A DNA stretch of 64,000 nucleotides from Streptomyces cathayae (GTDB lineage: Bacteria > Actinomycetota > Actinomycetes > Streptomycetales > Streptomycetaceae): positions 1,922,001 to 1,986,000 of the forward strand of contig NZ_CP121682.1 in the NCBI RefSeq assembly GCF_029760955.1. The letters are read 5' to 3'. Below are positions 14,689-33,191 of this stretch, one piece after another. The position numbers and the translations under genes are program-made. The first letter of the stretch is position 1. Each line of letters starts with the position of its first letter. The notes under the pieces are model-generated. The model was not told the DNA's origin. It did no database searches and worked only from the letters and a program-made list of their open reading frames with translations.

Positions 14689-15087
14689 TCAGGGCAGCAG
14701 GGCGAAGCCGTCGAGTTCCACCATCGCCTGCTCGTCCCACAGGCGGACGACCTCGACCACCGCCATCGCGGGGTAGTCGGTGCCGGCCAGCCGCCGCCAG
14801 ACGCGGCCGAGCTCACGGGCGTGGACGCGGTACGCGGCGACGTCGGTGGCGTAGACGGTGACGCGGGCCAGGTCCGCCGGGGTGCCGCCGGCGGCGCGCA
14901 GGGCGGTGAGGAGGTTGGTGAGGGCCCGGGTGAACTGCTCGGGCAGGGTGTCGCCGACGACCTTGCCGTCGCCGTCGAGGGCGGTCTGCCCTGCCAGGAA
15001 CACCGCCCGGGAGCCGGTGGCGACGACGGCGTGCGAGAAGCCTGCCGGGGGGCACAGGTCGGGCGGGTTGACGCGCTCGGTGGTCAT
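14689..15087 (-). CDS. RidA/YjgF family enamine-imine deaminase
   Basis: A 132-residue RidA-fold protein (SHAVVATGSRAVFLAGQTALD; ARVTVYATDVAAYRVH; YPAMAVVEVVRLWDEQAMVELDGFAL). The family hydrolyses reactive enamines/imines, but the canonical Arg of true RidA (usually in RVEI) is replaced around VVEVVRLW, so it is a divergent member and could have another substrate. Its start overlaps the stop of the acyl-CoA dehydrogenase gene (ATGA). In a 2-aminobenzoyl-CoA pathway the dearomatised product is itself a vinylogous enamine, which would suit such a deaminase; this is inference. Confidence 0.8.
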   Translation of the reverse strand: MTTERVNPPDLCPPAGFSHAVVATGSRAVFLAGQTALDGDGKVVGDTLPEQFTRALTNLLTALRAAGGTPADLARVTVYATDVAAYRVHARELGRVWRRLAGTDYPAMAVVEVVRLWDEQAMVELDGFALLP

Positions 15088-16211: not shown

Positions 16212-16301
16212 CGCCGGTCCCTTCCCTCCCCGCGCCCGACGCGGCCCGTCATGAGGCCCGCCCGAGCCCGCCATGAGGCCCGTCCGAGTGGACCCCGCCA
16301 G

Positions 16302-16343
16302 GCTATCGCGAACCGTTGACTGTCGTCATCAACGCGATACGCT
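16302..16343. promoter_or_regulatory. Divergent promoter with shared operator, copy 1
   Basis: Nested inverted repeats (TATCGCG ... CGCGATA outside, GTTGA ... TCAAC inside) lie between the acyl-CoA dehydrogenase and CoA-ligase genes. For the plus strand, TTGACT (16316) and TACGCT (16338) are 16 bp apart and make a plausible promoter. GCTATC, nine bases, TGACTGTCGTCA and then CGCGATA recur in the same order before the enoyl-CoA hydratase gene. The PaaX-type regulator encoded here is the likely ligand. Confidence 0.6.
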
Positions 16344-16381
16344 CCTGAGGCGAGCCCACCACGCCGAGGGGGCGAACCGTC

Positions 16382-18046
16382 ATGAATCCACGGACCACCG
16401 GGCACCCGCACCCCACCGGGCACCTCGACACCTTCGCCCGCGACCACCTCCCGCCACCCGCCCAGTGGCCCGAACTCCGCTTCGACCTGCCGGAGCTGGA
16501 CTACCCCGAACGGCTGAACTGCGCCGCCGAACTGCTGCACGGCCCGCCGGACGGCCGCCCGGCGTTCCGTACCCCCGACGGCGGCGTCTGGACGTACGGC
16601 GAGCTGCGCACCCGCGTGGACCGGCTGGCGCACGTCCTCACCGGCGCCCTCGGCGTCGTCCCCGGCAACCGGGTGCTGCTGCGCGGCCCCACCACGCCCT
16701 GGCTGGCCGCCTGCTGGCTGGCGGTGCTCAAGGCGGGCGCGGTCGCCGTCACCGTGCTGGCCCAGCAGCGTCCGCACGAGCTGAGCACCATCTGCGAGAT
16801 CGCCGCCGTACGGCACGCGCTGTGCGACGTCCGGTCCGTCGACGACCTCGCCAAGGCCGAGGTCCCGGGCCTGCGGATCACCCCGTACGGCGGTGACGCC
16901 CCGGACGACCTGCTGAACCGTCCGGCGCCCGGCACGCCGTACGAGGCCGTGGACACCACGGCGGACGACGTGGCGCTGATCGCCTTCACCTCGGGCACCA
17001 CCGGCCGCCCCAAGGGCTGTATGCACTTCCACCGGGACGTGCTCGCGATCGCGGACACCTTCTCCCGGCACGTCCTGCGGCCGGAGGCGGACGACGTGTT
17101 CGCCGGCAGTCCGCCGCTCGGCTTCACCTTCGGCCTGGGCGGTCTCGTGGTCTTCCCGCTGCGGGCGGGCGCCAGCGCGCTGCTGCTCGAACAGGCCCAC
17201 CCCGCACAGCTGTTGACCGCGATCGCCGAGCACCGGGTGTCGGTGCTGTTCACCGCGCCCACGGCCTACCGGGCGATGCTCGACACCCTCGACGGGCACA
17301 ACAGGCGCGGCGGATCCGGTGGCCCCGACCTCTCGTCGCTGCGGCGCTGCGTCTCGGCGGGCGAGAACCTGCCGGCGGCGACCTGGCGGGCCTGGCACGA
17401 GCGCACCGGGCTGCGGGTCATCAACGGCATCGGCGCCACCGAACTGCTGCACATCTTCCTCTCCGCCGCCGACGAACGGATCAGACCCGGAACCACGGGA
17501 GTTCCGGTCCCCGGGTGGCGGGCGCGCGTGCAGGACGCCCACGGCGCTCCCGTGCCCGACGGCGAGCCGGGGCTGCTCGCGGTGTGCGGGCCCGTCGGCT
17601 GCCGCTATCTCGCCGATCCGCGCCAGCGGGAGTACGTGCGCGGCGGCTGGAACGTCACCGGCGACACCTATGTCCGCGAGCCCGACGGCTACTTCCGCTA
17701 TGTCGCCCGCGCCGACGACATGATCATCTCGGCCGGGTACAACATCGCGGGCCCCGAGGTCGAGGACGCCCTGCTGCGCCATGCGGACGTCCTGGAGGCG
17801 GCGGTGGTCGGGCGGCCCGACGAGAGACGCGGCCAGGCCGTGGTGGCGTACGCGGTCCTCAGGGAGGGCGCCGAGCGGGACGCCGAGGCCCTGCGCGCCT
17901 TCGTGAAGGCGGAGCTCGCGCCGTACAAGTGCCCGCGCGAGATCGTCTTCCTGGACGCGCTGCCGCGCACCGCGACCGGCAAACTCCAGCGGTTCCGCCT
18001 GCGCACCGCCGCCGGTACGGCCGATATGGGAACTGACCAGGGATGA
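16382..18046 (+). CDS. 2-aminobenzoate/aryl-CoA ligase (AMP-forming)
   Basis: A 554-residue adenylate-forming enzyme. The P-loop-like FTSGTTGRPKG is at ~203, the second core motif reads INGIGATELLHIF, GDTYVREPDGYFRYVAR marks the hinge and TATGKLQRFRL holds the A10 lysine. GxTELLHxF and the overall length are those of benzoate/2-aminobenzoate-CoA ligases. It would activate an aromatic acid to its CoA thioester using ATP. The choice of 2-aminobenzoate (anthranilate) comes from the adjacent fused monooxygenase/reductase; benzoate, salicylate or a hydroxybenzoate remain possible. Confidence 0.85.
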   Translation: MNPRTTGHPHPTGHLDTFARDHLPPPAQWPELRFDLPELDYPERLNCAAELLHGPPDGRPAFRTPDGGVWTYGELRTRVDRLAHVLTGALGVVPGNRVLLRGPTTPWLAACWLAVLKAGAVAVTVLAQQRPHELSTICEIAAVRHALCDVRSVDDLAKAEVPGLRITPYGGDAPDDLLNRPAPGTPYEAVDTTADDVALIAFTSGTTGRPKGCMHFHRDVLAIADTFSRHVLRPEADDVFAGSPPLGFTFGLGGLVVFPLRAGASALLLEQAHPAQLLTAIAEHRVSVLFTAPTAYRAMLDTLDGHNRRGGSGGPDLSSLRRCVSAGENLPAATWRAWHERTGLRVINGIGATELLHIFLSAADERIRPGTTGVPVPGWRARVQDAHGAPVPDGEPGLLAVCGPVGCRYLADPRQREYVRGGWNVTGDTYVREPDGYFRYVARADDMIISAGYNIAGPEVEDALLRHADVLEAAVVGRPDERRGQAVVAYAVLREGAERDAEALRAFVKAELAPYKCPREIVFLDALPRTATGKLQRFRLRTAAGTADMGTDQG

Positions 18047-18086
18047 CACCGGTGCCGGGGGCCGGAGTGGATCAAGACGACCTAAG

Positions 18087-18908
18087 ATGATCAACGTGTC
18101 CGACCAGTCCGCGCAGCACGCTCCGAGGTCCCTCATCGTCACGCTCTACGGCGCCTACGGCCGCTTCGTGCCGGGCCCCGTGCCCGTCGCCGAGCTGATC
18201 CGGCTGCTGGCCGCGGTCGGCGTCGACGCCCCCTCCGTGCGTTCCTCGGTGTCCCGGCTCAAGCGGCGCGGGCTGCTCGTCCCGGCCCGCACCCCGCAGG
18301 GCGCGGCCGGCTACGAACTGTCGCCGGAAGCACGCCAGTTGCTGGAGGACGGCGATCGCCGCATCTACGCGACCGCCGCCCCCGCCGACGAGGGCTGGGT
18401 GCTCGCGGTGTTCTCCGTCCCGGAGTCCGAGCGCCAGAAGCGGCACCTCCTGCGCTCCCGCCTGTCCGGCCTCGGTTTCGGCACCGCCGCGCCCGGTGTG
18501 TGGATCGCGCCCGCCCGGCTGTACGAGGAGACCCGGCACACCCTTCAGCGGCTGCGGCTGGACGGTTACGTCGACTTCTTCCGCGGTGAGCACCTCGGTT
18601 ACACGCCCACCGCCGAGGCGGTCGCCCGCTGGTGGGACCTCGAGGGGATCGCCGAGGAGCACGAGGCGTTCCTGGAGCGCCACGCGCGGGTGCTGGACGC
18701 CTGGCGGGAGCGTGCGGACACCCCGCCCGAGGAGGCCTACCGCGACTACCTCCTCGCCCTCGACTCCTGGCGCCACCTCCCCTACACCGACCCGGGCCTG
18801 CCCGCCGGCCTGCTGCCCGCCGACTGGCCTGGGGCCCGCTCGGCGAGCGTCTTCCACGGACTGCACGAACGTCTGCGGGACGCGGGGGCCGGCTTCGCCG
18901 GACTGTGA
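18087..18908 (+). CDS. PaaX-family transcriptional repressor
   Basis: A 273-residue PaaX-like protein: N-terminal winged helix (SLIVTLYGAYGRF; VRSSVSRLKRRGLLVP), a central domain (GWVLAVFSVPESERQKRHLLRSRLSGLGFG) and a helical C-terminal part (WRHLPYTDPGLPAGLLP). PaaX proteins are repressors released by aryl-CoA thioesters such as phenylacetyl-CoA. Here the inducer would be the product of the ligase 40 bp upstream. The gene ends 23 bp from the converging monooxygenase gene. It is the likely reader of the composite motif before both operons. Confidence 0.88.
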   Translation: MINVSDQSAQHAPRSLIVTLYGAYGRFVPGPVPVAELIRLLAAVGVDAPSVRSSVSRLKRRGLLVPARTPQGAAGYELSPEARQLLEDGDRRIYATAAPADEGWVLAVFSVPESERQKRHLLRSRLSGLGFGTAAPGVWIAPARLYEETRHTLQRLRLDGYVDFFRGEHLGYTPTAEAVARWWDLEGIAEEHEAFLERHARVLDAWRERADTPPEEAYRDYLLALDSWRHLPYTDPGLPAGLLPADWPGARSASVFHGLHERLRDAGAGFAGL

Positions 18909-18931
18909 CCCCGCGGGCCGGTCCCGTCTCC

Positions 18932-21331
18932 TCAGCCGCCCAGGGTCAGCCGGGGCCGGGGAGCCTCCGTGCGGCCGGTCCGCGGGGGTCTGCGGCCGGC
19001 CAGGTAGGGCGCGGGCCAGGCGACGCCCTCGCCCTCGTAGCCCTGCTCGGCCGCCGCGTGCAGGGTCCAGTGCGGGTCGTAGAGGTGGGGGCGGGCCAGC
19101 GCGCACAGGTCCGCGCGCCCGGCCAGGATCAGCGAGTTGACGTCGTCCCAGGAGGAGATCGCGCCGACCGCGATCACCGGGACGCCGACGCGGTGGCGGA
19201 TGCGGTCGGCGAACGGCGTCTGGTAGGAACGGCCGAACTCCGGCTTCTCGTCGGACACCACCTGTCCGGTGGACACGTCGATCGCGTCGGCACCGTGTGC
19301 GGCGAAGGCGTGGGCGATGGCGACGGCGTCCTCGGCCGTGGTGCCGCCGTCGGCCCAGTCGGTGGCGGAGAGACGGACGGTCATGGGCCGCTGTTTCGGC
19401 CACACCCCGCGGACGGCGTCGAAGACCTCCAGCGGGAAGCGGAGCCGGTGCTCGAGCGGGCCGCCGTAGGCGTCGGTGCGGCGGTTGGTCAGCGGGGAGA
19501 GGAAGCCGGAGAGCAGATAGCCGTGGGCGCAGTGCAGTTCGAGCAGGTCGAACCCGGCGTGCGCGGCCCGCTCGGCCGCCGAGGTGAACTGCTCGCGGAT
19601 GCCGTCGAGTTGACTGATGGTCAGCTCGTGCGGGGTCTGGCTGTCCGGCCGGTAGGGCAGGGGGGAGGCGGCGACGAGGGGCCAGTTGCCGGTGTCCAGC
19701 GGCTCGTCCATGCCCTGCCACATCAGCTTGGTCGAGCCCTTGCGGCCGCTGTGGCCGAGCTGTACGCCGATCGCGGTGCCGGGTGCCGCCGTGTGCGCGA
19801 AGCCGGTGATCCGCCGCCATGCCGCGGCCTGGCTCTCGGTGTAGAGACCGGCGCAGCCGGGCGTGATGCGCCCCTCGGCGCTCACGCACACCATCTCCGT
19901 CATGACCAGCCCGGCTCCGCCCAGCGCACGGGCGCCCAGATGGACGAGGTGGAAGTCGCCGGGGACGCCGTCGGTGGCCGAGTACATGTCCATGGGGGAG
20001 ACGACGACCCGGTTGCGCAGGGTCAGTTCGCGCAGCCGCAGCGGGGTGAACATCGGGGGTGTACCGGGCGGGCAGCCGAACTCGCGCTCCACGGCGCCGG
20101 TGAAGCGGGCGTCGCGCAGGCGCAGGTTGTCGTGGGTGACGCGACGGCTGCGGGTGAGCAGGTTGAAGGCGAACTGCCGGGGCGGCTCCGCGAGGTACAG
20201 CTCCAGGTCCTCGAACCACTCCAGGCTGGCCCGTGCCGCCCGCTGGGTGGAGGTGACCACGGGCCGCCGCTCCGTCTCGTACGCGCGCAACGCGGCCTGC
20301 AGTGTGGGGTGTTCGCGCAGGCAGGCGGCCAGGGCCAGGGCGTCCTCGACGGCGAGCTTGGTGCCGGAGCCGATGGAGAAGTGGGCGGTGTGGGCGGCGT
20401 CGCCGAGCAGCACGACGTTGCCGTGCGACCAGCGGTCGTTGACGACCGTGCGGAAGGTCGTCCACGTCGACCTGTTGGACCGCAGCGGGCGGCCGCCGAG
20501 GGCGTCGGCGAAGATCTTGGCGCAGCGCTCGACCGACTGCTCCTCGTCGAGTTCACCGAACCCGGCGGCCCGCCACACCTCCTCGCGCATCTCGACGATC
20601 ACCGTGGAGGCGTCGGCGGAGAAGGGGTAGCCGTGCAGTTGCATCACGCCGTGCGGGGTCTCGGCGATCTCGAAGCGGAAGGCGTCGAAGGCGAGGTCCG
20701 CGGCCAGCCAGATGTAACGGCAGCGGTGCTCGGTGATCCGGGGGCGGAAGACGTCCGCGAAGGCGGCGCGGGTGCCGCTGTGCACCCCGTCGGCGGCCAC
20801 CACCAGGTCGTACGTCCGGGCCAGGTGGGCGGGGTCCGGCGCCTCGGCGCGAAAGCGCAGGTCGACGCCGAGGGAGCGGCAGCGTTCGTGGAGGATCTCC
20901 AGCAGCCGGCGCCGGCCGAGGGCGGCGAAGCCGTGGCCGCCGGAGGTGTGGCGTACCCCGCGGTGGACGATGTCGATGTCGTCCCAGCGGACGAAGTCCG
21001 CCCGGAGCGCCGCGTGGACCACCGGGTCGGCGTGCTCGATGCCGCCGAGGGTCTCGTCGGACAGGACGACGCCGAAGCCGAAGGTGTCGTCGGGGGCGTT
21101 GCGCTCCCAGACGGTGACCTCGCGCGCGGGGTCGAGGCGTTTGAGCAGCGCCGCCGCGTACAGGCCGCCGGGTCCGCCCCCGATCACCGCGACCTTCCGG
21201 ACGCCGGTGTCGGGCACGGCGCCGGTGTCGGTCACGGCGCTGGTGCCTGTCCCGGCGCCGGGGTCCGTCCCGGCTCCGGACTCCGGCTCCGTTCCGGCTC
21301 CGGTGGCGGGCACGACTACCGCCCCCGCCAT
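18932..21331 (-). CDS. Fused flavin monooxygenase/OYE reductase acting on aryl-CoA (2-aminobenzoyl-CoA monooxygenase/reductase type)
   Basis: A 799-residue two-domain flavoprotein. After a 45-residue Gly/Thr/Pro-rich start, residues ~47-430 are an FAD monooxygenase (VAVIGGGPGGLYAAALLKR, VAADGVHSG, VVLLGDAAHTAHFSIGSGTKLA). Residues ~440-790 are an old-yellow-enzyme barrel (RVVVSPMDMYSA, GVQLGHSGRKG, ELHCAHGYLLSGFLSP, GRADLCALARP). This architecture is that of 2-aminobenzoyl-CoA monooxygenase/reductase, which hydroxylates and then dearomatises the ring using NAD(P)H and O2. Databases also call it bifunctional salicylyl-CoA 5-hydroxylase/oxidoreductase. Its start overlaps the hydratase gene by 16 bp. 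Confidence 0.88.
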   Translation of the reverse strand: MAGAVVVPATGAGTEPESGAGTDPGAGTGTSAVTDTGAVPDTGVRKVAVIGGGPGGLYAAALLKRLDPAREVTVWERNAPDDTFGFGVVLSDETLGGIEHADPVVHAALRADFVRWDDIDIVHRGVRHTSGGHGFAALGRRRLLEILHERCRSLGVDLRFRAEAPDPAHLARTYDLVVAADGVHSGTRAAFADVFRPRITEHRCRYIWLAADLAFDAFRFEIAETPHGVMQLHGYPFSADASTVIVEMREEVWRAAGFGELDEEQSVERCAKIFADALGGRPLRSNRSTWTTFRTVVNDRWSHGNVVLLGDAAHTAHFSIGSGTKLAVEDALALAACLREHPTLQAALRAYETERRPVVTSTQRAARASLEWFEDLELYLAEPPRQFAFNLLTRSRRVTHDNLRLRDARFTGAVEREFGCPPGTPPMFTPLRLRELTLRNRVVVSPMDMYSATDGVPGDFHLVHLGARALGGAGLVMTEMVCVSAEGRITPGCAGLYTESQAAAWRRITGFAHTAAPGTAIGVQLGHSGRKGSTKLMWQGMDEPLDTGNWPLVAASPLPYRPDSQTPHELTISQLDGIREQFTSAAERAAHAGFDLLELHCAHGYLLSGFLSPLTNRRTDAYGGPLEHRLRFPLEVFDAVRGVWPKQRPMTVRLSATDWADGGTTAEDAVAIAHAFAAHGADAIDVSTGQVVSDEKPEFGRSYQTPFADRIRHRVGVPVIAVGAISSWDDVNSLILAGRADLCALARPHLYDPHWTLHAAAEQGYEGEGVAWPAPYLAGRRPPRTGRTEAPRPRLTLGG

Positions 21332-22143
21332 TTCGGGGAGCGCTTCTCGGTGAAGGCCGCGTGGAACTCGGCGTAGTCCTCGCCGTTCATGAGCAGGGCC
21401 TGGGTGGCGGCGTCCAGCTCCACGGCGGCGGCCAGGGGCATGTCCAGTTCGGCCGTGAGCAGCGCCTTGGTCTGGGCGTACGCCAGCGCCGGGCCGTCGG
21501 CCAGGCGGCGGGCGAGGGCCTGGGCGGCCTCGCCCGCGCCGCCGTCGTCGGCGAGGACGCTGATCAGGCCGATCCGCTCGGCCTCGGGCGCCCGGACCGG
21601 TTCGCCGAGCATCAGCAGCCGGGTCGCGTGGCCGAGGCCGACCACCCGGGGCAGCAGATAGGCGGCGCCCATGTCGCCGCCGGACAGGCCGACCCGGGTG
21701 AAGAGGAAGGCGAAGCGGGCCGTGGGGTCGGCGACCCGGAAGTCCGCGGCCAGGGCGAGGACGGCGCCCGCGCCCGCCGCGACCCCGTGCACCGCGGCGA
21801 TCACCGGGAACGGGCACTCCCGGATCGCCCGTACGGTCTGCCCGGTCATCCGGTTGAAGTCGAGGAGCTGGGCGGTGTCCATGCCGAGGGTCGCGCCGAT
21901 GATCTCGTCCACGTCACCGCCGGAGCAGAAGCCGCGCCCCTCCCCGGCCAGCACCAGGGCCCGCACCGCCCGCTCCCGGGACAGTTCGGCGAGCAGGTCG
22001 CGCAGGTCGGCGTAGGCGCCGAAGGTGAGGGCGTTGAGCTTGTCGGGGCGGGCGAGGGTGACGGTGGCGACGCCGTCGGCGAGGTCGACGCGCAGATGCT
22101 CCCAGCGGGGGGTGCGGGCGGCGGAGCCGGTGAAGGGACTCAT
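21316..22143 (-). CDS. Enoyl-CoA hydratase/isomerase
   Basis: A 275-residue crotonase-fold protein: GEGRGFCSGGDVDEI and AAVHGVAAGAGAVLALAADFRVA form the two oxyanion-hole segments, then FAFLFTRVGLSGGDMGAAYLLPRVVG. It would hydrate or open a CoA-bound ring intermediate after the monooxygenase/reductase. The start is the ATG after GAGGAGG; an upstream in-frame GTG lacks a ribosome site. It is the first gene of the two-gene minus-strand operon controlled by the second copy of the shared operator. Confidence 0.88.
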   Translation of the reverse strand: MSPFTGSAARTPRWEHLRVDLADGVATVTLARPDKLNALTFGAYADLRDLLAELSRERAVRALVLAGEGRGFCSGGDVDEIIGATLGMDTAQLLDFNRMTGQTVRAIRECPFPVIAAVHGVAAGAGAVLALAADFRVADPTARFAFLFTRVGLSGGDMGAAYLLPRVVGLGHATRLLMLGEPVRAPEAERIGLISVLADDGGAGEAAQALARRLADGPALAYAQTKALLTAELDMPLAAAVELDAATQALLMNGEDYAEFHAAFTEKRSPKWRGR

Positions 22144-22224
22144 GAGGGCGGCCTCCTCGGGCGGGCGCGCCGCGCGGTCTCGCACTGCGGCTGCTGCCCT
22201 GCTCACTGAGCTCTACCCCGCGAA

Positions 22225-22848: not shown

Positions 22849-23859
22849 TCAGGCCAGGGTCGCCACCAGGACCGCCTTGATCGTGTGCATCCGGTTCTCC
22901 GCCTCGTCGAAGACGACCGAGTGGTCCGACTCGAACACCTCGTCGGTCACCTCCAGCGACTCCAGCCCGTGCTTCTCGTGCACCTCGCGCCCGACCAGGG
23001 TGCCCAGGTCGTGGAAGGCCGGCAGGCAGTGCAGGAAGCGGACGTCCGGGTTGCCGGTGGCCCGGAGCACGTCCATGGTCACCGCGTACGGCGCGAGGGA
23101 GGCGATCCGCTCGTCCCAGACCTCCTGGGGCTCCCCCATCGAGACCCAGACGTCGGTGGCGACGAAGTCGACGCCCGCGACCCCCTCGGCGATCTCCTCG
23201 GTGAGCGTGATGCGGGCCCCGCTGGACTCCGCGAGCACCCGCGCCCGGTCGACGACCTCCTGCGCGGGCCAGTACGTCTTCGGGGCGACGATCCGCACGT
23301 CCATGCCCAGCAGGGCCGCGGTGACGAGGTAGGAGTTGCCCATGTTGAAACGGGCGTCGCCGAGGTAGGCGAAGGAGATCTCCGTGACCGGCTTTCCGCC
23401 GCCGTGCTCGGTCATGGTGAGCACGTCGGCGAGCATCTGGGTGGGGTGCCAGTCGTCGGTCAGGCCGTTGTAGACGGGCACGCCCGCATGCTCGGCGAGG
23501 GTCTCCACGGTGGACTGGGAGTCGCCCCGGAACTCGATCGCGTCGAACATCCGGCCGAGCACCCGCGCGGTGTCCTTCGCGGACTCCTTCTTCCCGATGT
23601 GCGAGCCGCTCGGGTCGATGTACGTCGTGAAGGCGCCCTGGTCGGCGGCGGCCACCTCGAAGGCGCAACGGGTGCGCGTCGAGGGCTTCTCGAAGATCAG
23701 CGCGATGTTCCTGCCCCGGAGGTACCGGGTCTCGGTCCCGGCCTTCTTGGCGGCCTTCAGCTCTGCGGCCAGGTCGAGCAGGCCGAGGAACTCCTGCGCG
23801 GTGAAGTCCACCTCCTTGAGGAAGTTGCGGCCGGCGAGGGCGGTCGGGACTGTCGCCAT
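22849..23859 (-). CDS. argF: Ornithine carbamoyltransferase
   Basis: A 336-residue ornithine transcarbamylase. It has the carbamoyl-phosphate site [13 protein letters not shown], the [14 protein letters not shown] motif and the ornithine loop [10 protein letters not shown]. It catalyses ornithine + carbamoyl phosphate to citrulline + phosphate, reversibly. Because arginine deiminase lies upstream on the same strand, the catabolic direction (arcB role) is plausible. I chose the ATG at [13 protein letters not shown]; in-frame ATGs 11 and 23 codons upstream are possible but run into the operator-like AT-rich region. Confidence 0.93.
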
Positions 23860-23900
23860 GGGGCGCTCCAGAGGTGCAGGGACAGGGGACATATGGAACT

Positions 23901-23930
23901 CTATACGAATACCAGAATTTATATGCAAGC
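23901..23930 (-). promoter_or_regulatory. Candidate ARG boxes (ArgR operator)
   Basis: An AT-rich island (TTGCATATAAATT and TATTCGTATAG on the transcribed strand) in otherwise GC-rich DNA between arginine deiminase and ornithine carbamoyltransferase. Both halves resemble ARG-box halves bound by ArgR (TGCATA-like, TATTCNTATA). It suggests that argF has its own arginine-responsive promoter. Confidence 0.45.
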
Positions 23931-23944
23931 ATCCATCGGCACCC

Positions 23945-25174
23945 CTACCCCTGCACCGCGTCCCGCTCGACCGGACAGCTCATGCAGCGCGGTCCGCCCC
24001 TCCCCCGGCCGAGTTCGCTGCCGGGGATCTCGATCACCTCGATGCCCTGCTTGCGCAGATGCGTGTTGGTGGTGGCGTTGCGCTCGTAGGCGACGACCAC
24101 ACCCGGTTCCACGGCCAGGACGTTGCAGCCGTCGTCCCACTGCTCGCGCTCGGCGGCGTGGACGTCCTGGGTCGCGGTCAGCACCCGGATCTCGCTGAGC
24201 CCGAGCGCGGCGGCGATGGCCCGGTGCATGTGCTCCGGCGGATGGTCGGTGACCTTGAGCTCCTTGTCCCCGGCACCGGGTTCGATGGTGTACGAACGGA
24301 GCATGCCGAGGCCGGCGTACTGGGTGAAGGTGTCGCCGTCGATCATCGTCATCACCGTGTCCAGGTGCATGACGGCGCGCCTCTTCGGCATGTCGAGGGC
24401 GACGATGGTCTCGGCGGAACCGGCGGCGAACAGCTTGTGCGCGAGCATCTCCACGGCCTGCGGGGTGGTCCGCTCGCTCATGCCGATCAGCACCGCGCCG
24501 TTGCCGATGACCAGGACGTCCCCGCCCTCGATGGTGGACGGGTAGTCGGCCTGCCCCTCGGACCAGACGTGGAAGTCCTCCCCGCGGAACAGCGGGTGGT
24601 GCCGGTAGATCGCCTCGAAGTGCACGGTCTCACGCTGCCGGGCGGGCCAGCGCATGGCGTTGATGGAGACCCCGTCGTAGATCCAGGCGGAGGTGTCCCG
24701 GGTGAAGAGGTGGTTGGGCAGCGGGCGGAGCAGGAAGTCGTCGAGTTCCATGGCGTGGAAACGCACGGACGTCGGTTCGGGGTGGACGTCCAGGAACTCC
24801 CGCTTGGTCATCCCCCCGACCAGCGCCTCGGCGAGCTCGGCCGCGGGCAGCGGCTCGAACGCCGCACGGAGGTGGTCGGTGGCCAGCGGGCCGTACTCCT
24901 TCTCGTCGAAGACACGGTCCAGGACGAGCTCACGGGCCGCCGGGATGTCCAGCGTCGAGGCGAGCAGATCACCGAAGAGGTGGACGGCGACCCCCCGGTC
25001 GCGCAGGACGTCGGCGAACCCGTCGTGCTCGGCGCGCGCCCGGCGCACCCAGAGCACGTCGTCGAAGAGCAGGGCGTCCTTGTTGCTGGGGGTGAGCCTT
25101 TTGAGCTCGAGATCGGGCCGGTGCAGGATGACGCGGCGCAGCCGTCCGGCCTCGGAGTCGACGTGGTAGGTCAT
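23945..25174 (-). CDS. arcA: Arginine deiminase
   Basis: A 409-residue arginine deiminase (arginine to citrulline and ammonia). Conserved segments: [19 protein letters not shown], the [20 protein letters not shown] segment with substrate acids, [10 protein letters not shown] with the catalytic His, and the C-terminal [13 protein letters not shown], whose second cysteine is the catalytic nucleophile. It begins at [10 protein letters not shown]. It is followed by ornithine carbamoyltransferase, so two steps of the ADI pathway are here. No carbamate kinase or arginine/ornithine antiporter gene is present in the window, so ATP yield would need genes elsewhere. Confidence 0.95.
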
Positions 25175-25481
25175 GTATCCATCCTGACCACCCGGCGGGC
25201 TGTTCACCCCTCCGCGGCCGGGACGGGCCTCGGCCGCGGGCAGCCGGTACGCCGCCGACGAAGCGGCGGGACGAGATCGCGTCCGGCCCGGCGTCCGTGC
25301 TCACGTCCTCGCCGCCCTGCCCGGCGCCTCCGCCGGACGGAACAGCGGCTCTCCGGCGGGCACCGTCCGCCGACCAGGGCGTTCGGGTGTGCACGGGTGA
25401 TCTGCAACCAGGGCCCCGTCGTTCTCGTGCTCCATCCGGTTGGGGCGGGGTGCGGGGTCCCGCTTGGCCGATGGACCTGCG
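25175..25481. other. Gene-free interval upstream of arcA
   Basis: About 300 bp with several open frames of poor composition (Arg/Pro/Ala only). I find no recognisable gene, repeat or RNA here. The arcA promoter must lie at its left end. Confidence 0.4.
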
Positions 25482-25945: not shown

Positions 25946-26081
25946 TGGACGGCCGACACAAGAAAAGGGAGATGGCAGGAAGTTGCAAATGACTTCGTTC
26001 GCTTGCTGCCGAAGGCTGCACCATGCCAGCATGAACTCCGGGGAAAGACCCCTGGATAACTAAAGAAAGGGGGCCGCATAA

Positions 26082-26198
26082 ATGGCCACCAAGGAGATCT
26101 ACGAGGTTCCGCTCTTCCTCGAGGCCGGGGAATTCCGGTCCGCCACCGGTTGGCTCTTCAAGGGCAGCTGGGACTGGTTCGGTGGAGCGATCGTCTAA
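26082..26198 (+). CDS. Lasso peptide precursor (A)
   Basis: A 38-residue precursor, too short for most gene finders. The leader has the B1-binding pattern Tyr7-x-x-Pro10 ... Gly16-x-Phe18 and the conserved Thr22 at position -2. Cleavage after Gly23 gives the core WLFKGSWDWFGGAIV. Asp8 of the core is spaced to close an 8-residue macrolactam with the N-terminal amine of Trp1, leaving a 7-residue tail. The end of the leader (GEFRSATG then Trp) closely resembles that of fusilassin, which also starts with Trp. A ribosome site AAAGGGGG precedes the ATG. If cleavage were after Thr22, the ring would be Gly1-Asp9. Confidence 0.9.
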   Translation: MATKEIYEVPLFLEAGEFRSATGWLFKGSWDWFGGAIV

Positions 26199-26219
26199 TT
26201 CGAACGTAGGAATCAGCTG

Positions 26220-28064
26220 ATGCCGAGCCGCGGTACGCCTTTCTTCTTCGCGTTCTCCGACAGTGAGGCCGGGCGTTTCGCGGCCCGGCGTCTGCGCCGT
26301 GAGAACACCGGCCTGCGCGTCGTCGCACACGCGTCCGGCCGCCCGTGGGTGGTCGGGCGCTGGGCCGACGAGGACATCGCCGTCGCACGGGCAGGATCGA
26401 CGGCCGTTGTCCTGATCGGCACCCTTCCGGAGCTGTGCGACCGGTTGACCGACCGGGTCGAGCGGCTGCGCGACCTGGATGAACTGGACACCCTGAGCAC
26501 GTCGGTGGCGGGCGACTTCCACCTCCTCGCCTGCCTGGCCGGCGACATGCGGGTACAGGGCACCGCCTACGGCAGCCGAAGGATCTTCCACACGCGGTCC
26601 CAGGACACCGAAGTGGTGGCCGACCGGGCCGCCCTGCTGGCCGAGTTCGTCGGTGCCCGACTCGACGAGGCCGCCGTCGCGATGCGTCTGGTGCAGCCGC
26701 TGCCCGCGCTGTTGGCCGAGCGTGTGCTGTGGCACGGGGTGTCCGCCGTACCGCCCGGCCGGCAGCTGACGCTTCAGGCGGACGGACGGCTGCGCAGCCG
26801 GCGCTGGCACCGGCCGCCCGAGCCGCGCGTGCCGCTGGCACAGGGCGCGGCCGCGGTCCGCTCGGCCCTGACGGACGCCGTGGCGGCCAGGACCCGTCTG
26901 GGCGGGCTGATCAGCGGCGACCTGTCCGGGGGAATGGACTCCACCTCGATTTGCTCGCTCGCGGCCAGGGACGGGACCGCGAAACTCATCGCCTGCACAG
27001 CTCCGGGCGACGAGTCCGAGAACGACGACGGATTTTACGCCCGGCTCGCCGTCGAGAAAATGCCGGGCACCGAACACTTCGTTCTGCCGAAGGACGAGCT
27101 CCCGCTTTTTTACAGCGGGATACTCGATGAACACAGCAGAACGGACACGCCTTCCATTTTCGCCGTCTCGCGTGACCGGGCGACGGTGCTGAATTCCCGG
27201 ATGGCCGAGCGGGGTTCCCGGCTGCACCTCACCGGCTATGGAGGTGACCACCTCTTTCTGGGGTCGGCCGCCCAGTACCACGGTCTCCTGCCGCGCAGAC
27301 CTGTACTGAGTCTTCAGCAGCTTCGTGCCTACCGGATCCTTTTCTCCTGGAGTTGGCGCGAGGTACTCGCGCAACTCGCCGACCGCCGCTCCTACCGGTC
27401 CGCCCTGGCCTCGCTGAGTGTGCACCGATCGGGCGACCTGAGCATCAGCGCCCCTGCCCTGGGCTGGCTGGTCCCTCCGCACATTCCGGTGTGGCTCACC
27501 GGTGACTGCCGCGCGATGATCCAGCGCCAGTTCGCCGAGGCTGCCCACAACGCGGAGCCGTACGCCCCCACCAGCGGCCGGCACCGCGAACTGGAGGCCA
27601 TCCACGTCGGAACTCAGGAGATGCGCGCGGTGAGCGAGATGGTCCGGCACGTCGGCGTGCCCCTGGCCACGCCCTACTTCGACGATCACGTGATAGACGC
27701 GGCCCTGTCCGTGCGCATCGAGGACCGGGCGACACCATGGGCGTACAAGCCGCTGCTGACCGAGGCCATGCGCGGCATCGTCGCGGACGGATGCCTGGCA
27801 CGCACCACCAAGGGCGACGGCTCCCGGGACGAGACGGGCGGCCTCTACCGGCACCGGGACGAACTCGCCGCCCTGTGGGACGACAGCGCGCTGACCGCGC
27901 TGGGCCTGGTCGATGCCGAGGCATTGCGACAGTCGACCACCCGTCCCGGCTCGCCCGAGATGCAGGACAGCGCCATCAGCAGCGTCCTCGCCTGCGAAGT
28001 CTGGCTGCGCACGGCATACAACGGAGCGTCACGCAACGAAGCACCACGGAGGACGACAGCATGA
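26220..28064 (+). CDS. Lasso peptide macrolactam synthetase (C), asparagine-synthetase-like
   Basis: A 614-residue asparagine-synthetase B homologue. The N-terminal ~200 residues are a degenerate glutaminase-like domain without the catalytic Cys2 (it starts MPSRGTPFFF), as in lasso cyclases. The ATP pyrophosphatase motif SGDLSGGMDSTS is at ~233-244, and HLTGYGGDHLFLG follows at ~340. It activates the core Asp side chain with ATP so that the alpha-amine can attack and close the ring. It follows the precursor by 21 bp and overlaps the next gene (ATGA). Confidence 0.93.
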   Translation: MPSRGTPFFFAFSDSEAGRFAARRLRRENTGLRVVAHASGRPWVVGRWADEDIAVARAGSTAVVLIGTLPELCDRLTDRVERLRDLDELDTLSTSVAGDFHLLACLAGDMRVQGTAYGSRRIFHTRSQDTEVVADRAALLAEFVGARLDEAAVAMRLVQPLPALLAERVLWHGVSAVPPGRQLTLQADGRLRSRRWHRPPEPRVPLAQGAAAVRSALTDAVAARTRLGGLISGDLSGGMDSTSICSLAARDGTAKLIACTAPGDESENDDGFYARLAVEKMPGTEHFVLPKDELPLFYSGILDEHSRTDTPSIFAVSRDRATVLNSRMAERGSRLHLTGYGGDHLFLGSAAQYHGLLPRRPVLSLQQLRAYRILFSWSWREVLAQLADRRSYRSALASLSVHRSGDLSISAPALGWLVPPHIPVWLTGDCRAMIQRQFAEAAHNAEPYAPTSGRHRELEAIHVGTQEMRAVSEMVRHVGVPLATPYFDDHVIDAALSVRIEDRATPWAYKPLLTEAMRGIVADGCLARTTKGDGSRDETGGLYRHRDELAALWDDSALTALGLVDAEALRQSTTRPGSPEMQDSAISSVLACEVWLRTAYNGASRNEAPRRTTA

Positions 28065-28318
28065 CCCTGAAGGTCAGCAAGCACCTGAAGTTGGCCGAAA
28101 CCGAGTTCGGCGCGGCGATGCTCGACGAGAAGAGCGGGCGGTACTGGCAGCTGAACCCCGCCGCGGCGACCATCGCCCGTGCCCTCCTGGACGGCGGGAC
28201 CCCCGAGGACGCCGTCCGCGCCGTCACCGACAGGTTCGACGTGGACGACGCCCGCGCATCGGCCGACGTGCGGAACCTGGTGGAAGCGATGCGCGCCGCC
28301 GGGGTGGTGCGGGGATGA
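28061..28318 (+). CDS. Lasso peptide RRE protein (B1), PqqD-like
   Basis: An 85-residue RiPP recognition element of the PqqD fold: GAAMLDEKSGRYWQLNPAAATIARALLDGG then AVTDRFDVDDARASADVRNLVEAMRAAGVV. It binds the YxxP leader and presents the precursor to the protease and cyclase. It is a separate gene from the protease, as is normal in actinobacteria, and is tightly coupled on both sides by ATGA overlaps. Confidence 0.92.
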   Translation: MTLKVSKHLKLAETEFGAAMLDEKSGRYWQLNPAAATIARALLDGGTPEDAVRAVTDRFDVDDARASADVRNLVEAMRAAGVVRG

Positions 28319-28773
28319 GTATGGCCCTCGCGTTGAAACGCGACCGCCGAAAACGGCCCCTGGGCCTGCGTGTGCGCACCCGCGCCGCCATCATCGCCGC
28401 ACGGCTGCTGGTGTTTCTGCCCCCGCACCGGCTGCGGCGGGTCATGGGGGCGTTTCGCCGCGGAGCCGAACCGGCCACCGTCGAGCAGGCCACCGCCGCC
28501 CGGGAGTCCGTACTCGCGGCGAGCCTCGCCCTCAACGGCCTGCGCGCCTGCTTGCCCCGGTCCGTGTCGGTCGCCCTGCTGTGCCGCCTGCTCGGCGTGT
28601 GGCCCACTTGGTGTGTCGGCACCCGCACGGCTCCCCCGTTCGCGGCGCATGCCTGGGTCGAGGCGGAAGGCCGACTGGTCGGTGAGCAGGGGGTGTACAA
28701 CGCCTATGCGCGACTGATGAGCGTGCCACCCCTCGTGTCCCCGGAGCCGGCCGACGCCGCCGGTGTGCGGTGA
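28315..28773 (+). CDS. Lasso peptide leader protease (B2), transglutaminase-like
   Basis: A 152-residue cysteine protease of the lasso B2 family. Cys79 in LRACLPRSVS and His112 in FAAHAWVEAEGRLVGE are the catalytic pair, with a helical N-terminus (RAAIIAARLLVFLPPHRLRRV). It removes the leader after Gly23. It is the last gene of the cluster. No ABC transporter, GNAT, kinase or other tailoring gene follows, so export and immunity are not explained by local genes. Confidence 0.92.
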   Translation: MSMALALKRDRRKRPLGLRVRTRAAIIAARLLVFLPPHRLRRVMGAFRRGAEPATVEQATAARESVLAASLALNGLRACLPRSVSVALLCRLLGVWPTWCVGTRTAPPFAAHAWVEAEGRLVGEQGVYNAYARLMSVPPLVSPEPADAAGVR

Positions 28774-28983: not shown

Positions 28984-31548
28984 TCAAAGCCGCGGGTCGA
29001 CGGGCTCCGACTCCAGGGCCAGGACGCCGAAGACCGCCTCGTGGACCCGCCACAGGGGTTCGCCCTCGGCGAGCCGGTCCAGTGCCTCCAGGCCGAGCGC
29101 GTACTCGCGGACGGCCAGGGACCGCTTGTGGCCCAGGGACCGGCCGCGCAGCCGGGCCAGGTTCTCGGGGCGCGTGTACTCGGGACCGTAGATGATCCGC
29201 AGGTACTCGCGGCCCCGGCACTTGATCCCGGGCTGCACCAGGCGGTCCTTCGGATCGCGGACCAGGGCGCCGACCGGTTTGACGACCATGCCCTCGCCGC
29301 CGCGTCCGGTCATCTCCAGCCACCAGTCGACACCCGCCCGCACCGACTCCGGGTCGGCGGGGTCGACGTACAGGCGGCGGGTGGTCCGCAGCAGACCGGT
29401 GGCGTCGTGTTCGACCATGCGGTCGAGCAGGGCGAGCTGCTCGTCGTGCGGCAGGGCGGCGAGGCTGCGGCCCTGGACGGCGAGGATCTGGAACGGGGCG
29501 AGGCGTACGCCGTCCAGTCCCTCGGTGGGCCAGCAGTAACGGCGGTAGGCGTCGGTGAACGCGGCGGCGTCGTCGGCGCGTTCACTCTGTCGGTCCAGGA
29601 GCTCCTTCACCTCCACGCCCCGGGCGGCAGCCTCCTCCAGGGCCGCCAGCGCGCCCGGGAACACCGCGCCGGAGGCGGCGCCCACGGCGGCGTACTGCGC
29701 ACGCAGCAGCCCGGCCGCCTTCAGCGACCACGGCATCAACTCGGCGTCCAGCAGCAGCCATTCCGTCTCGAGCGTGTCCCAGAGCCCGGCCTCGGTGACC
29801 GCCGTGCGCAGCCGGCCGAGGATCTCCTCGGTGACCGCGGCGTCGTCGAAGAACGGGCGTCCGGTACGAGTGTAGAGCGATCCGGCCGGGCCGTTCTCGA
29901 CGCCGAAGTGCCGGGCGGCCGCGGCCGCGTCCCGGCAGACCAGGGCGACCGCCCGCGACCCCATGTGCTTCTCCTCGCACACGACACGCTCGACCCCGTC
30001 CTCCCGGTACTGGGCGAAGGCCTCGACCGGGTGCTCCAGGTAGCCGTCCAGGCGGGAGGTGGCCGTGGGGGCCATGGTCGGCGGGAGGTAGGGCAGCAGG
30101 CGCGGGTCGATCGCGAAGCGGCTCATGACCTCCAGCGCGGCGGCGGCGTTCTCCTCGCGCACGGCGACCCGGCCGGCGTGCCGGGTCTCCACGGCCCGGC
30201 GGCCGTGCACGTCGGCGAGGTCCAGCGGACGGCCGTCGTGCCCGCCGGGAGCCTCGGTGCGCAGCGGGCGGACCGGCTCGTACCAGACCCGCTCGGCCGG
30301 CACGTCGACCAGTTCCCGCTCCGGCCAGCGCAGCGCGGTGAGCTTGCCGCCGAAGACAGCGCCGGTGTCCAGACAGATGGTGTTGTTCAGCCAGGTCGCC
30401 TCGGGGACCGGGGTGTGGCCGTAGACGACGGCGGCCCGGCCCCGGTAGTCCTCGGCCCACGGGTAGCGCACGGGCAGGCCGAACTCGTCGGTCTCGCCGG
30501 TGGTGTCGCCGTACAGGGCGTGGCTGCGGACCCGGCCGGAGGTACGGCCGTGGTACTTCTCCGGCAGCCCGGCGTGGCAGACGACCAGCCGGCCGCCGTC
30601 GAGGACGTAGTGACTGACCAGGCCGTCGACGAACTCCCGTACCTCAGACCGGAACTCCTCACCCTCCCGATCCATCTGCTCGACGGTCTCGGCAAGGCCG
30701 TGGGTGTGCTGGACCTTGCGGCCCTTCAGGTACCGCCCGAACTTGTTCTCGTGGTTGCCGGGCACGCACAGCGCGTTGCCCGACTTCACCATGGCCATGA
30801 CCCGCCGCAGCACGCCCGGACTGTCCGGCCCCCGGTCCACGAGGTCACCGACGAAGACCGCGGTGCGACCCTCGGAGTGCACCCCGTCGACGTATCCCAA
30901 CGCAACCAGCAGCGACTCCAGTTCGGCGGCGCAGCCGTGGACGTCGCCGATGATGTCGAAGGGCCCGGTGAGGTGGGTGAGGTCGTTGTACCGCTTCTCG
31001 GTGACGACGGTGGCGTCCTCGACCTCGGCGACACCCCGCAGGACGTGCACCTTGCGGAAGCCCTCGCGCTCCAGGCTCCGCAGGGAGCGGCGGAGTTCGC
31101 GGATGTGCCGCTGCACGACCCGGCGGGGCATGTCCGCGCGGTCGGAACGGGCCGCGTTGCGCTCGGCGCACACCTCCTCGGGCACGTCGAGCACGACGGC
31201 TATCGGCAGTACGTCGTGTTGCCTGGCCAGGTCGACCAGTTGGCGCCTGGCGTCCTGCTGGACGCTGGTGGCGTCGACGACGGTGCGCCGCCCCGCGGCG
31301 AGCCGCTTGCCCGCGATGTAGTGCAGGACGTCGAAGGCGTCCCCGGACGCACTCTGGTCGTTCTCGTCGTCGGCGACCAGGCCGCGGCAGAAGTCGGAGG
31401 AGATGACCTCGGTGGGCTTGAAGTGCCGACGGGCGAAGGTGGACTTGCCCGAGCCGGAGGCCCCGACGAGAACGACGAGGGAAAGGTCGGTGACGGGCAG
31501 AACCCGGCCCTCGGCGCTGCGGGCTTCGGCAGTGGTCTCGCTGCTCAC
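28984..31548 (-). CDS. pnkp: Bacterial polynucleotide kinase-phosphatase (RNA repair), Pnkp
   Basis: An 854-residue three-domain RNA-repair enzyme. A 5' kinase has the P-loop GASGSGKST at 29-37. A metallophosphatase follows with GDVHGC at 201, GDLVDRG at 234 and GNHENK at 264. The C-terminal ligase/adenylyltransferase has CEEKHMGSR at ~525-533, the Lys being the nucleotidyl acceptor. It heals cleaved RNA ends and works with Hen1, whose gene overlaps its start by 4 bp (ATGA). Homologues repair tRNAs cut by ribotoxins. All key motifs are intact. Confidence 0.95.
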   Translation of the reverse strand: MSSETTAEARSAEGRVLPVTDLSLVVLVGASGSGKSTFARRHFKPTEVISSDFCRGLVADDENDQSASGDAFDVLHYIAGKRLAAGRRTVVDATSVQQDARRQLVDLARQHDVLPIAVVLDVPEEVCAERNAARSDRADMPRRVVQRHIRELRRSLRSLEREGFRKVHVLRGVAEVEDATVVTEKRYNDLTHLTGPFDIIGDVHGCAAELESLLVALGYVDGVHSEGRTAVFVGDLVDRGPDSPGVLRRVMAMVKSGNALCVPGNHENKFGRYLKGRKVQHTHGLAETVEQMDREGEEFRSEVREFVDGLVSHYVLDGGRLVVCHAGLPEKYHGRTSGRVRSHALYGDTTGETDEFGLPVRYPWAEDYRGRAAVVYGHTPVPEATWLNNTICLDTGAVFGGKLTALRWPERELVDVPAERVWYEPVRPLRTEAPGGHDGRPLDLADVHGRRAVETRHAGRVAVREENAAAALEVMSRFAIDPRLLPYLPPTMAPTATSRLDGYLEHPVEAFAQYREDGVERVVCEEKHMGSRAVALVCRDAAAAARHFGVENGPAGSLYTRTGRPFFDDAAVTEEILGRLRTAVTEAGLWDTLETEWLLLDAELMPWSLKAAGLLRAQYAAVGAASGAVFPGALAALEEAAARGVEVKELLDRQSERADDAAAFTDAYRRYCWPTEGLDGVRLAPFQILAVQGRSLAALPHDEQLALLDRMVEHDATGLLRTTRRLYVDPADPESVRAGVDWWLEMTGRGGEGMVVKPVGALVRDPKDRLVQPGIKCRGREYLRIIYGPEYTRPENLARLRGRSLGHKRSLAVREYALGLEALDRLAEGEPLWRVHEAVFGVLALESEPVDPRL

Positions 31549-33026
31549 GCTGCCTTCACCTCTTCCTTCTTGTCCATGGTCTTCTTGTCCACTGTCACGA
31601 ACACGGCCATCTGGGTGGGCGGTCCGACCTCCGGGTCGTCCGGCCCCACGGGTGCGAACTCGACTTCGTAGCCGTACTGTTCGGCGACCCCGGCCGCCCA
31701 GCCGCGGAACTCCTCACGGGTCCACTCGAAGCGGTGGTCGCCGTGCCGGACATGCCCGGCCGGCAGGCTCTCCCAGCGCACGTTGTACTCGACGTTCGGG
31801 GTGGTCACGAGGACCGTACGGGGGCGGGCCGCGCCGAACACGGCGTACTCCAGGGCGGGCAGCCTCGGCGGGTCGAGGTGCTCGATCACCTCGCTGAGCA
31901 CGGCCGCGTCGTACCCCTGGAGCCGCTTGTCGGTGTACGACAGCGAGCCCTGCAGCAGCTTCACCCGCGCCGCCTGCCGCTCCCCCATGCGGTCCAGCTT
32001 GAGCCGCCGGGAGGCGCTGGTGAGCGCCCGCATGGACACGTCGAGGCCCACGATCTCGGTGAAGGCCGGGTTTCGCAGCAGCTCCTGCACCAACTGGCCC
32101 TGCCCGCACCCGAGATCGAGCACCCGGGCGGCCCCGGACGCACGCAGCGCGGCGACGATCGCGTCCCGACGCTGCACGGCGAGCGGGGTCGGCTTCTCCT
32201 CGCTCTCGCTGTCCTCCCCCACGGCGTTGTCGATCTCCTCGACCTCACTGTCGTCCGCCTCGGCCAGCCGGACCAGCTCGAGCCGTTCCATCGCCTCCCT
32301 CGTCAGCGACCAGCGCCGGGTGAGGTAACGGCTGGTGATCAGCTTCTGCTCCGGGTGGCCGGGCAGCCAGCCCTCACCGGCGCGCAGCAGCTTGTCCACC
32401 TCGTCGGACGCCACCCAGTAGTGCTTGGCGTCGTCGAGGACGGGGAGCAGGACGTAGAGGTGGCGCAGGGCCTCGGCGAGGGTGAGGGTGTCCGCCTCCA
32501 GGACGAGGCGTACGTACCGCGAGTCGCCCCACTGCGGGAACTCGGTGTCCAGGGGCACCGGCTCGGCCGTGACCGTCCAGCCGAGCGGCTCGAAGAGCCG
32601 GCCGACCAGTGCGGGGCCGCCGCGCGCGGGCAGCGCGGGTATCTCGATGCACAGCGGCAGCGGCTGCCCCGGCAGCTCCGGGCGGGCCTTGCACACACCG
32701 CGCATCGCGCTGGAGAAGACCGCGCTCAGCGCGACGGCGAGCAGCGAGGACGCCGCGTACGGACGGTCGTTGACGTACTGCGCGAGCGCGGCGTCGGGCG
32801 CACCACCCCGCCCCTTGCCCCTGCCCCGCCGGACCAGCGCCACCGCGTCCACCTCCAGCAGCAGCGCCGCCGTGCAGCGCTCGGCGTCCGCCTCGGGGTA
32901 GAGGACGTGCGCCGTGCCGTAGGAGGTGGAGAACGCCTGCGCCTTCCCGGGATGCTTGTGCAGCAGAAAACCCAGATCGGTCGCGGGACGCTCGGGGACG
33001 CCGGTGGTACTGATCATCAGGAACAC
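31545..33026 (-). CDS. hen1: 3'-terminal RNA ribose 2'-O-methyltransferase Hen1
   Basis: A 493-residue bacterial Hen1. The N-terminal half is the domain that activates the Pnkp ligase (MFLMISTTGVPERPATDLGF; YVNDRPYAASSLLAVALSAVF). The C-terminal methyltransferase has the SAM motif VLDLGCGQGQLVQ and the Mn-binding SEVIEHLDPPRL, with a further His in HGDHRFEWTREEF. It methylates the 2'-OH of the cleaved 3' end so that the repaired RNA resists re-cleavage. I chose the GTG at FLMISTTG because family members begin exactly there. It is the first gene of the repair operon. Confidence 0.95.
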   Translation of the reverse strand: MFLMISTTGVPERPATDLGFLLHKHPGKAQAFSTSYGTAHVLYPEADAERCTAALLLEVDAVALVRRGRGKGRGGAPDAALAQYVNDRPYAASSLLAVALSAVFSSAMRGVCKARPELPGQPLPLCIEIPALPARGGPALVGRLFEPLGWTVTAEPVPLDTEFPQWGDSRYVRLVLEADTLTLAEALRHLYVLLPVLDDAKHYWVASDEVDKLLRAGEGWLPGHPEQKLITSRYLTRRWSLTREAMERLELVRLAEADDSEVEEIDNAVGEDSESEEKPTPLAVQRRDAIVAALRASGAARVLDLGCGQGQLVQELLRNPAFTEIVGLDVSMRALTSASRRLKLDRMGERQAARVKLLQGSLSYTDKRLQGYDAAVLSEVIEHLDPPRLPALEYAVFGAARPRTVLVTTPNVEYNVRWESLPAGHVRHGDHRFEWTREEFRGWAAGVAEQYGYEVEFAPVGPDDPEVGPPTQMAVFVTVDKKTMDKKEEVKAA

Positions 33027-33191
33027 GTGACCGAGTATGGGCGGCGTCGGGCCCACACCGACACTCAATTACCGCGCGAACAACAGAGCCCCCACCAGGC
33101 CGGCAGGCAGCCGGCCCCAGAGGACGTCCTCCGGGCAACAGTCCGGCAGAGCAACCCATATCGACCGCCTCCGCTCCGCTCCTTGAACTCG
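33027..33191. other. Gap upstream of hen1
   Basis: 165 bp with the presumed hen1 promoter; no distinct element recognised. Confidence 0.3.

Follow-up and report, generated by a model that had tools for sequence, protein, structure and literature searches.

A compact lasso peptide operon

The 64-kb window analyzed here (bases 1922001–1986000 of contig 1 in the 7.6-Mb genome of Streptomyces cathayae) contains a lasso peptide operon at window positions 26082–28773 on the + strand. Its four genes encode a precursor, a lasso cyclase, a ribosomally synthesized and post-translationally modified peptide (RiPP) recognition element (RRE) and a B2 leader protease, in that order, and all four frames are open, co-directional and close-packed. 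The precursor gene (26082–26198, +) is preceded by a purine-rich stretch, AAAGGGGG (26066–26073, +), that on direct sequence reading resembles a Shine–Dalgarno site and lies 8 nt upstream of the ATG. The precursor stop is separated from the cyclase start by 21 nt, while the RRE ATG overlaps the cyclase stop and the B2 ATG overlaps the RRE stop, each as ATGA. A terminator scan returned one terminator-like site (26221–26235), compared to 1.2 expected. A first-pass annotation had placed a compact lasso peptide cluster in this interval, and the four frames sit at the coordinates it gave.

The assignments of the three enzymes were drawn from family models and alignments. The cyclase (26220–28064, +; 614 amino acids) contains an Asn_synthase domain (PF00733, 1.4e-37) with an LSGGMDS PP-loop and has lasso cyclase relatives; its N terminus, MPSRG, lacks the Cys2 that characterizes glutamine amidotransferases. 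The RRE (28061–28318, +; 85 amino acids), a PqqD-like leader-binding protein, matched PF05402 (1.4e-15) and passed the lasso model NF033530 lasso_PqqD_Strm (102 bits; cut-off 70). Among solved structures it matched TfuB1 (6JX3, 1.3e-14), which we take to be the RRE of fusilassin, and TbiB1 (5V1U, 0.0028). The B2 protease (28315–28773, +; 152 amino acids) matched PF13471 (2.3e-21) and passed the lasso model NF033537 (108 bits; cut-off 33), and an alignment of seven B2 proteins showed conservation of the CLPRS Cys, the HAW His and a Glu that follows. The cyclase, RRE and protease had been described as intact, in agreement with these open frames, family matches and retained B2 catalytic residues. 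A PDB sequence search with the cyclase and B2 gave no match.

The precursor and its predicted core

The 38-residue precursor reads MATKEIYEVPLFLEAGEFRSATG followed by WLFKGSWDWFGGAIV and contains a YxxP leader motif and Thr(−2). The search pattern (Y..P, then T-x-core with Asp or Glu at core positions 7–9) occurs once in the window. In 60 dinucleotide shuffles it occurred on average 0.58 times per 64 kb, with at least one match in 25 of the 60, and a bare match alone is not significant. What is significant is its place, with only 21 nt separating it from a lasso cyclase that runs in the same direction; arithmetic from the shuffle rate gives approximately 0.0007 expected matches in a 150-nt same-strand stretch before the cyclase. 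A precursor of like pattern adjoins the cyclase in all 33 loci L002–L034 (L005 being the window's own), with one additional chance match each in L002 and L007, and is also present in L035 (by its length, the same contig as L002) and L036.

Profiles built from these precursors recovered 15 database proteins in a first search and 22 in a second, including stlassin-type and keywimysin-related precursors; ten of the first 15 carry the NCBI name 'keywimysin-related RiPP'. P0128, possibly from the window's own species, differs from the window precursor at one residue and has an unchanged leader. P0133 has an identical leader and the core WLFKGNRDWFFGAFI, in which Trp1 and Asp8 are kept and positions 6, 7, 11, 14 and 15 are changed. 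Across 18 aligned precursors the invariant columns are M, Y, P, F, A-G, F, T-G and the ring Asp. The easily missed 38-residue precursor of the first-pass annotation, with its leader pattern, is borne out by its position before the cyclase and by these two homologs. Searched against 61 genomes, the window precursor matched only itself, and no plasmid matched; three viral-contig stretches (L047–L049) fit a loosely defined DNA pattern for the core, probably by chance.

The 23-residue leader (26082–26150, +) includes the presumed RRE-binding part YEVPLF and ends in the residues ATG ahead of the cut, as judged from the invariant columns. The predicted 15-residue core (26151–26195, +) contains three tryptophans; closure of Trp1 onto Asp8 would give an eight-residue ring, a seven-residue tail, WFGGAIV, and a calculated monoisotopic [M+H]+ of 1750.874. 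For the boundary, we compared printed cores. The L007 precursor reads ...ETG followed by LVVIVQADWNAPGWF, exactly the core of stlassin printed in Table 1 of PMC12427821, and citrulassin A (LLGLAGNDRLVLSKN) in the same table fits precursors of the form ...KTG/LL.... The fusilassin precursor is given in PMC12338566 as ...GEFKEATG/WYTAEWG..., and around the cut the window precursor (...GEFRSATG/WLFKGSWD) is nearly identical. Because the stlassin, citrulassin and fusilassin cores all start after Thr-Gly, a core beginning at Trp1 with an Asp8 ring is the best reading. The ring and tail sizes predicted earlier agree with this start and with the invariant Asp column of the 18 precursors. Family models, relatives and printed cores together support the roles given to the genes, the precursor itself, the start of its core and the ring.

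Trp as first residue had been called rare. It is uncommon, found in one of 62 cores by hand count in Table 1 of PMC12427821 (fuscanodin), but the rarity was overstated given the precedents of fuscanodin/fusilassin and P0122. In the precursor group it occurs in four of 23 distinct cores (the window, P0128, P0133 and P0122, WVYIIGNDGTGRGWL), a count that favors the window's own group since the window precursor was among the seeds of the profile. For this count the core of P0137, which has a TG in its leader, was set by hand to begin with Met.

Placement among lasso peptide families

The cyclase is 74% and 73% identical to P0002 and P0003, 54% to the stlassin-type loci L006/L007 and 43–47% to citrulassin-type cyclases; its nearest named relatives come from Streptomyces (P0002, Streptomyces sp. 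SCA3-4) and Kitasatospora (P0003, Kitasatospora sp. NPDC094028). A quick tree of 69 rows with Shimodaira–Hasegawa-like approximate likelihood ratio test (SH-aLRT) support, in which a long-branch warning applied to other rows, placed the window, P0002 and P0003 together at 100. Their sister set has 13 rows (support of 98 for all 16 together); the precursor type is known for four of the 13, two of them stlassin-type loci and two keywimysin-type. Citrulassin-type cyclases fall apart from these, and loci of an MGLP type fall in the next set (30 rows, 96). The tree rows include 17 of 25 citrulassin-type loci and 42 of 119 database cyclases listed besides the window's. Cyclase matches at 1e-120 were found in 50 of 394 genomes, with loci built for 30 places only; a genus draw at 1e-155 gave matches in four of 392 genomes, the window's own included, and none of 70 genomes from the genus of genome G128, presumably Kitasatospora, matched at 1e-140.

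The MGLP-type precursors form a group of their own, [ML]GLPxGxWDW... (L008, L036 and L044; P0127, P0132, P0134 and P0137), with an apparent nine-residue ring and a 17-residue core. One of these loci, L044, is carried by a linear plasmid and has an adenylation-domain gene nearby.

Stlassin, a Streptomyces class II lasso peptide, shares with the window core the start after TG, 15 residues, Asp8 and DW at positions 8–9, and stlassin-type cyclases belong to the sister set. It differs in having Leu1 instead of Trp1 and the tail WNAPGWF instead of WFGGAIV. Keywimysin-related RiPPs (PF19397/DUF5972; cores such as FVVIVGNDGTGRGWF and WVYIIGNDGTGRGWL) share the leader, the 15-residue core and Asp8, and P0122 among them has Trp1, but they have a GND ring motif and a GRGW[FL] tail; keywimysin's own place in this group is given by database name alone. 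Fuscanodin/fusilassin (WYTAEWGLELIFVFPRFI) shares Trp1 after ...EATG and, through TfuB1, an RRE match, but has 18 residues and a nine-residue ring. Citrulassins share 15 residues, Asp8 and the start after TG. Membership in the citrulassins was rejected, as these have a GNDR core with Arg9 (converted to citrulline in citrulassin A) and an adjacent D gene, whereas the window core contains no Arg and the window no D homolog. The albusnodin family and an albusnodin-type acetylation of Lys4 were also considered and rejected: the cyclase score against the albusnodin/ikarugamycin model NF033561 is under cut-off and no acetyltransferase was present among the neighbors scanned, which were arginine deiminase, three small unassigned frames, Pnkp and Hen1.

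Transporter genes appear to follow the cyclase group

The absence of an adjacent D-type ATP-binding cassette (ABC) transporter had been noted, and two tests in the window agreed: no open reading frame (ORF) of at least 150 codons combines Walker A and ABC signature motifs, and the D protein encoded at the citrulassin-type locus L043 (PF00664 and PF00005; L012 is the query's own locus) had no tblastn match. In citrulassin-type loci (L009–L030 and L032–L034; flanks of approximately 1.5 kb), a D homolog lies just past B2 in 23 of 25, the query's own included; the exceptions are L016, with no D match, and L028, with only a 43-residue match. L043 is the one locus in which B2 was itself read as a gene. 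The window's cyclase group, by comparison, has an adjacent D homolog in none of eight distinct loci (the window; L002/L035/L040; L004; L006/L037; L007/L038; L008/L039; L036/L041; L044). These include the stlassin-type L037/L038 and the keywimysin-related L002 and L004. L003 and L031, outside the group, gave no D match either.

Some observations temper the count of none in eight. L039 and L041 match the D ATPase part weakly (E values of 6e-4 and 4e-4), and the L041 match lies inside a Walker-A ORF, approximately 4 kb upstream of the cyclase, with a start similar to that of the annotated ABC ATPase of L044. In L044 itself, an annotated ABC ATPase and permease, which follow an adenylation-domain gene, end 2.8 kb before the precursor. 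On the opposite strand downstream, L044 has an annotated MMPL transporter and L004 an MFS protein. The comparison suggests that the lack of an adjacent D gene would follow the cyclase group and be no peculiarity of the window cluster, so that the earlier observation stands but the rarity it implied was overstated. Chaxapeptin (GFGSKPLDSFGLNFF), which differs in having Gly1, likewise comes from a cluster without a transporter; PMC6856326 reports that S. coelicolor nevertheless produced the peptide, that it was present in the supernatant of S. albus, and that a homologous S. cinnamoneus cluster has a two-component ABC transporter.

Proposed biosynthesis and alternative readings

The locus is very probably a canonical minimal Streptomyces lasso operon. 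Its product would be a class II lasso peptide of 15 residues, WLFKGSWDWFGGAIV, eight of which form the ring. In the proposed pathway, the RRE would bind the leader at its YEVPLF part and B2 would cut after Gly(−1), behind ...ATG. The cyclase would then adenylate Asp8 and join it to the Trp1 amino group, closing the ring around a prefolded tail and giving the class II product, predicted to carry no further modification, and export would depend on a transporter encoded outside the cluster, as proposed for chaxapeptin. The genes, families, conservation and cyclase placement entering this scheme were observed directly; the cut site, ring and threading are carried over from characterized relatives.

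Several points weigh against the scheme. The product itself is a prediction from the genes. The best NCBIfam match of the cyclase, NF033561 (albusnodin/ikarugamycin macrolactam cyclase), reached 239 bits against a cut-off of 300. The precursors beside the nearest cyclases, P0002 and P0003, were not found among the 22 profile matches. A sigma-70 scan, which is poor for Streptomyces, found no promoter (0.1 expected). The window precursor scored 16.0 bits against PF19397, where the cut-off is 22.6; because this score is under cut-off, the window cluster is filed as a putative new group, sister to the stlassin/keywimysin-related lasso peptides, and not as keywimysin. Finally, a stable thread is less certain because the tail ends without the bulky residues found in most relatives, and threading is the least certain step of the pathway.

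The tail end was compared by hand count with 20 database relatives other than P0128 and P0133, which group with the window. An end of the form -GW[FLI], typical of the stlassin/keywimysin-related group though not strict, is present in 14 of the 20, and in 18 at least one of the final three residues is aromatic; neither holds for the window (GAIV) or P0128 (GAII). According to PMC13352647, the steric locks of lasso peptides are usually bulky aromatics. These comparisons could be cited for a product in which the ring forms but the tail is not stably threaded, giving a branched-cyclic or easily unthreaded peptide with Ile14 and Val15 as weak plugs. We nevertheless consider it very unlikely, as the position tolerates change: P0139 (...PYAMV) and P0140 (...PGII) also lack an aromatic at the end, and P0133 (GAFI) has Phe14. 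P0140 may share a contig with cyclase P0014, which falls inside the sister set. In addition, smaller side chains can lock smaller rings. The plain tail end thus appears unusual but not unique. In a more elaborate proposal, the window peptide (together with that of P0128) would be a Trp1 lasso with Trp9/Phe10 as its hold above the ring and nothing but the beta-branched Ile14/Val15 below; its thread would open on heating or on meeting a target, and a housekeeping system would export it. We regard this as unlikely, and our estimate was lowered because of Phe14 in P0133 and the two other relatives without an aromatic end.

Still less favored than the unthreaded product is a shifted cut. If B2 cut after Thr, the product would be a 16-residue Gly1–Asp9 lasso, GWLFKGSWDWFGGAIV, with a calculated [M+H]+ of about 1807.90. 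Gly is the first residue in 39 of the 62 cores printed in Table 1 of PMC12427821 (hand count), and nine-residue rings occur among relatives such as the MGLP group, yet the start of the stlassin, citrulassin and fusilassin cores after T-G and the invariance of TG in 18 aligned relatives leave this reading a slim chance. Least probable is a silent or decaying cluster with no product, for which the empty promoter scan could be cited, since four intact frames, conserved B2 catalytic residues and retained operon overlaps all speak against decay. The preferred reading remains the Trp1–Asp8 lasso.

Neighboring genes and a second lasso-like locus

Directly past the operon, at 28984–33068 (−), lies an RNA-repair pair, Pnkp (TIGR04075, 1375.6 bits) and Hen1 (TIGR04074, 678.5 bits). 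A PADLOC scan yielded only one weak match, that of Hen1. As a bacterial RNA-repair pair, these genes were rejected as cluster members. Upstream, an arginine deiminase (23945–25207, −) and an ornithine carbamoyltransferase (22849–23928, −) adjoin each other and were considered for a link to citrulline, which was rejected because the core has no Arg and both enzymes match ordinary families. Three small frames between 25204 and 26063 gave no Pfam match. Farther upstream, 15084–22206 encodes a benzoate-CoA-ligase-like protein (CoA, coenzyme A), a bifunctional salicylyl-CoA 5-hydroxylase/oxidoreductase (NF006101 over cut-off), a PaaX-like regulator, an acyl-CoA dehydrogenase and an enoyl-CoA hydratase (NF006107 over cut-off), probably for aromatic-CoA breakdown.

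A second lasso-like locus of the same genome lies outside the window (L050:6957–9600, −; contig 1, about 6921956–6924599). It encodes a cyclase (PF00733) and a 211-residue B2-like protease that is over cut-off for NF033537 and has an N-terminal part without family assignment; no separate RRE gene was noticed, although no search aimed at one was made. Directly upstream is a 38-residue ORF that lacks both YxxP and Thr(−2) and ends in ...RLIRGFSGAFYDGHGYHS. All eight other loci with the same B2 (nine of 199 genomes, its own included) have this ORF at 74–94% identity, and its differences fall mostly at third codon positions in six of the eight. Three pieces of it were absent from the papers searched. 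The ORF would be an atypical lasso precursor, perhaps more unusual than the window cluster, with a possible core GFSG..YDGHGY.. and a Gly1–Asp8 ring.

Discussion

The locus is a real, intact and canonical lasso cluster, ordinary in kind, whose predicted core is apparently undescribed. Neither WLFKGSWDWFGGAIV nor the fragment SWDWFGGAI occurs in the papers searched, which did not extend to paywalled articles, the bulk of preprints, supplements or lasso databases; within that scope, the first-pass annotation's failure to recognize the core as a known lasso peptide proved sound. Because the cluster adjoins a known lasso group, it is a sound and unsurprising addition to it.

The interest of WLFKGSWDWFGGAIV is as an apparently undescribed neighbor of stlassin, a relative that handles well. 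With Ile14 and Val15 at its end, it offers a natural test of the minimal plug needed by an eight-residue ring. Since the absence of an adjacent D gene appears to follow the cyclase group, the question of export can be tested with the sister clusters.

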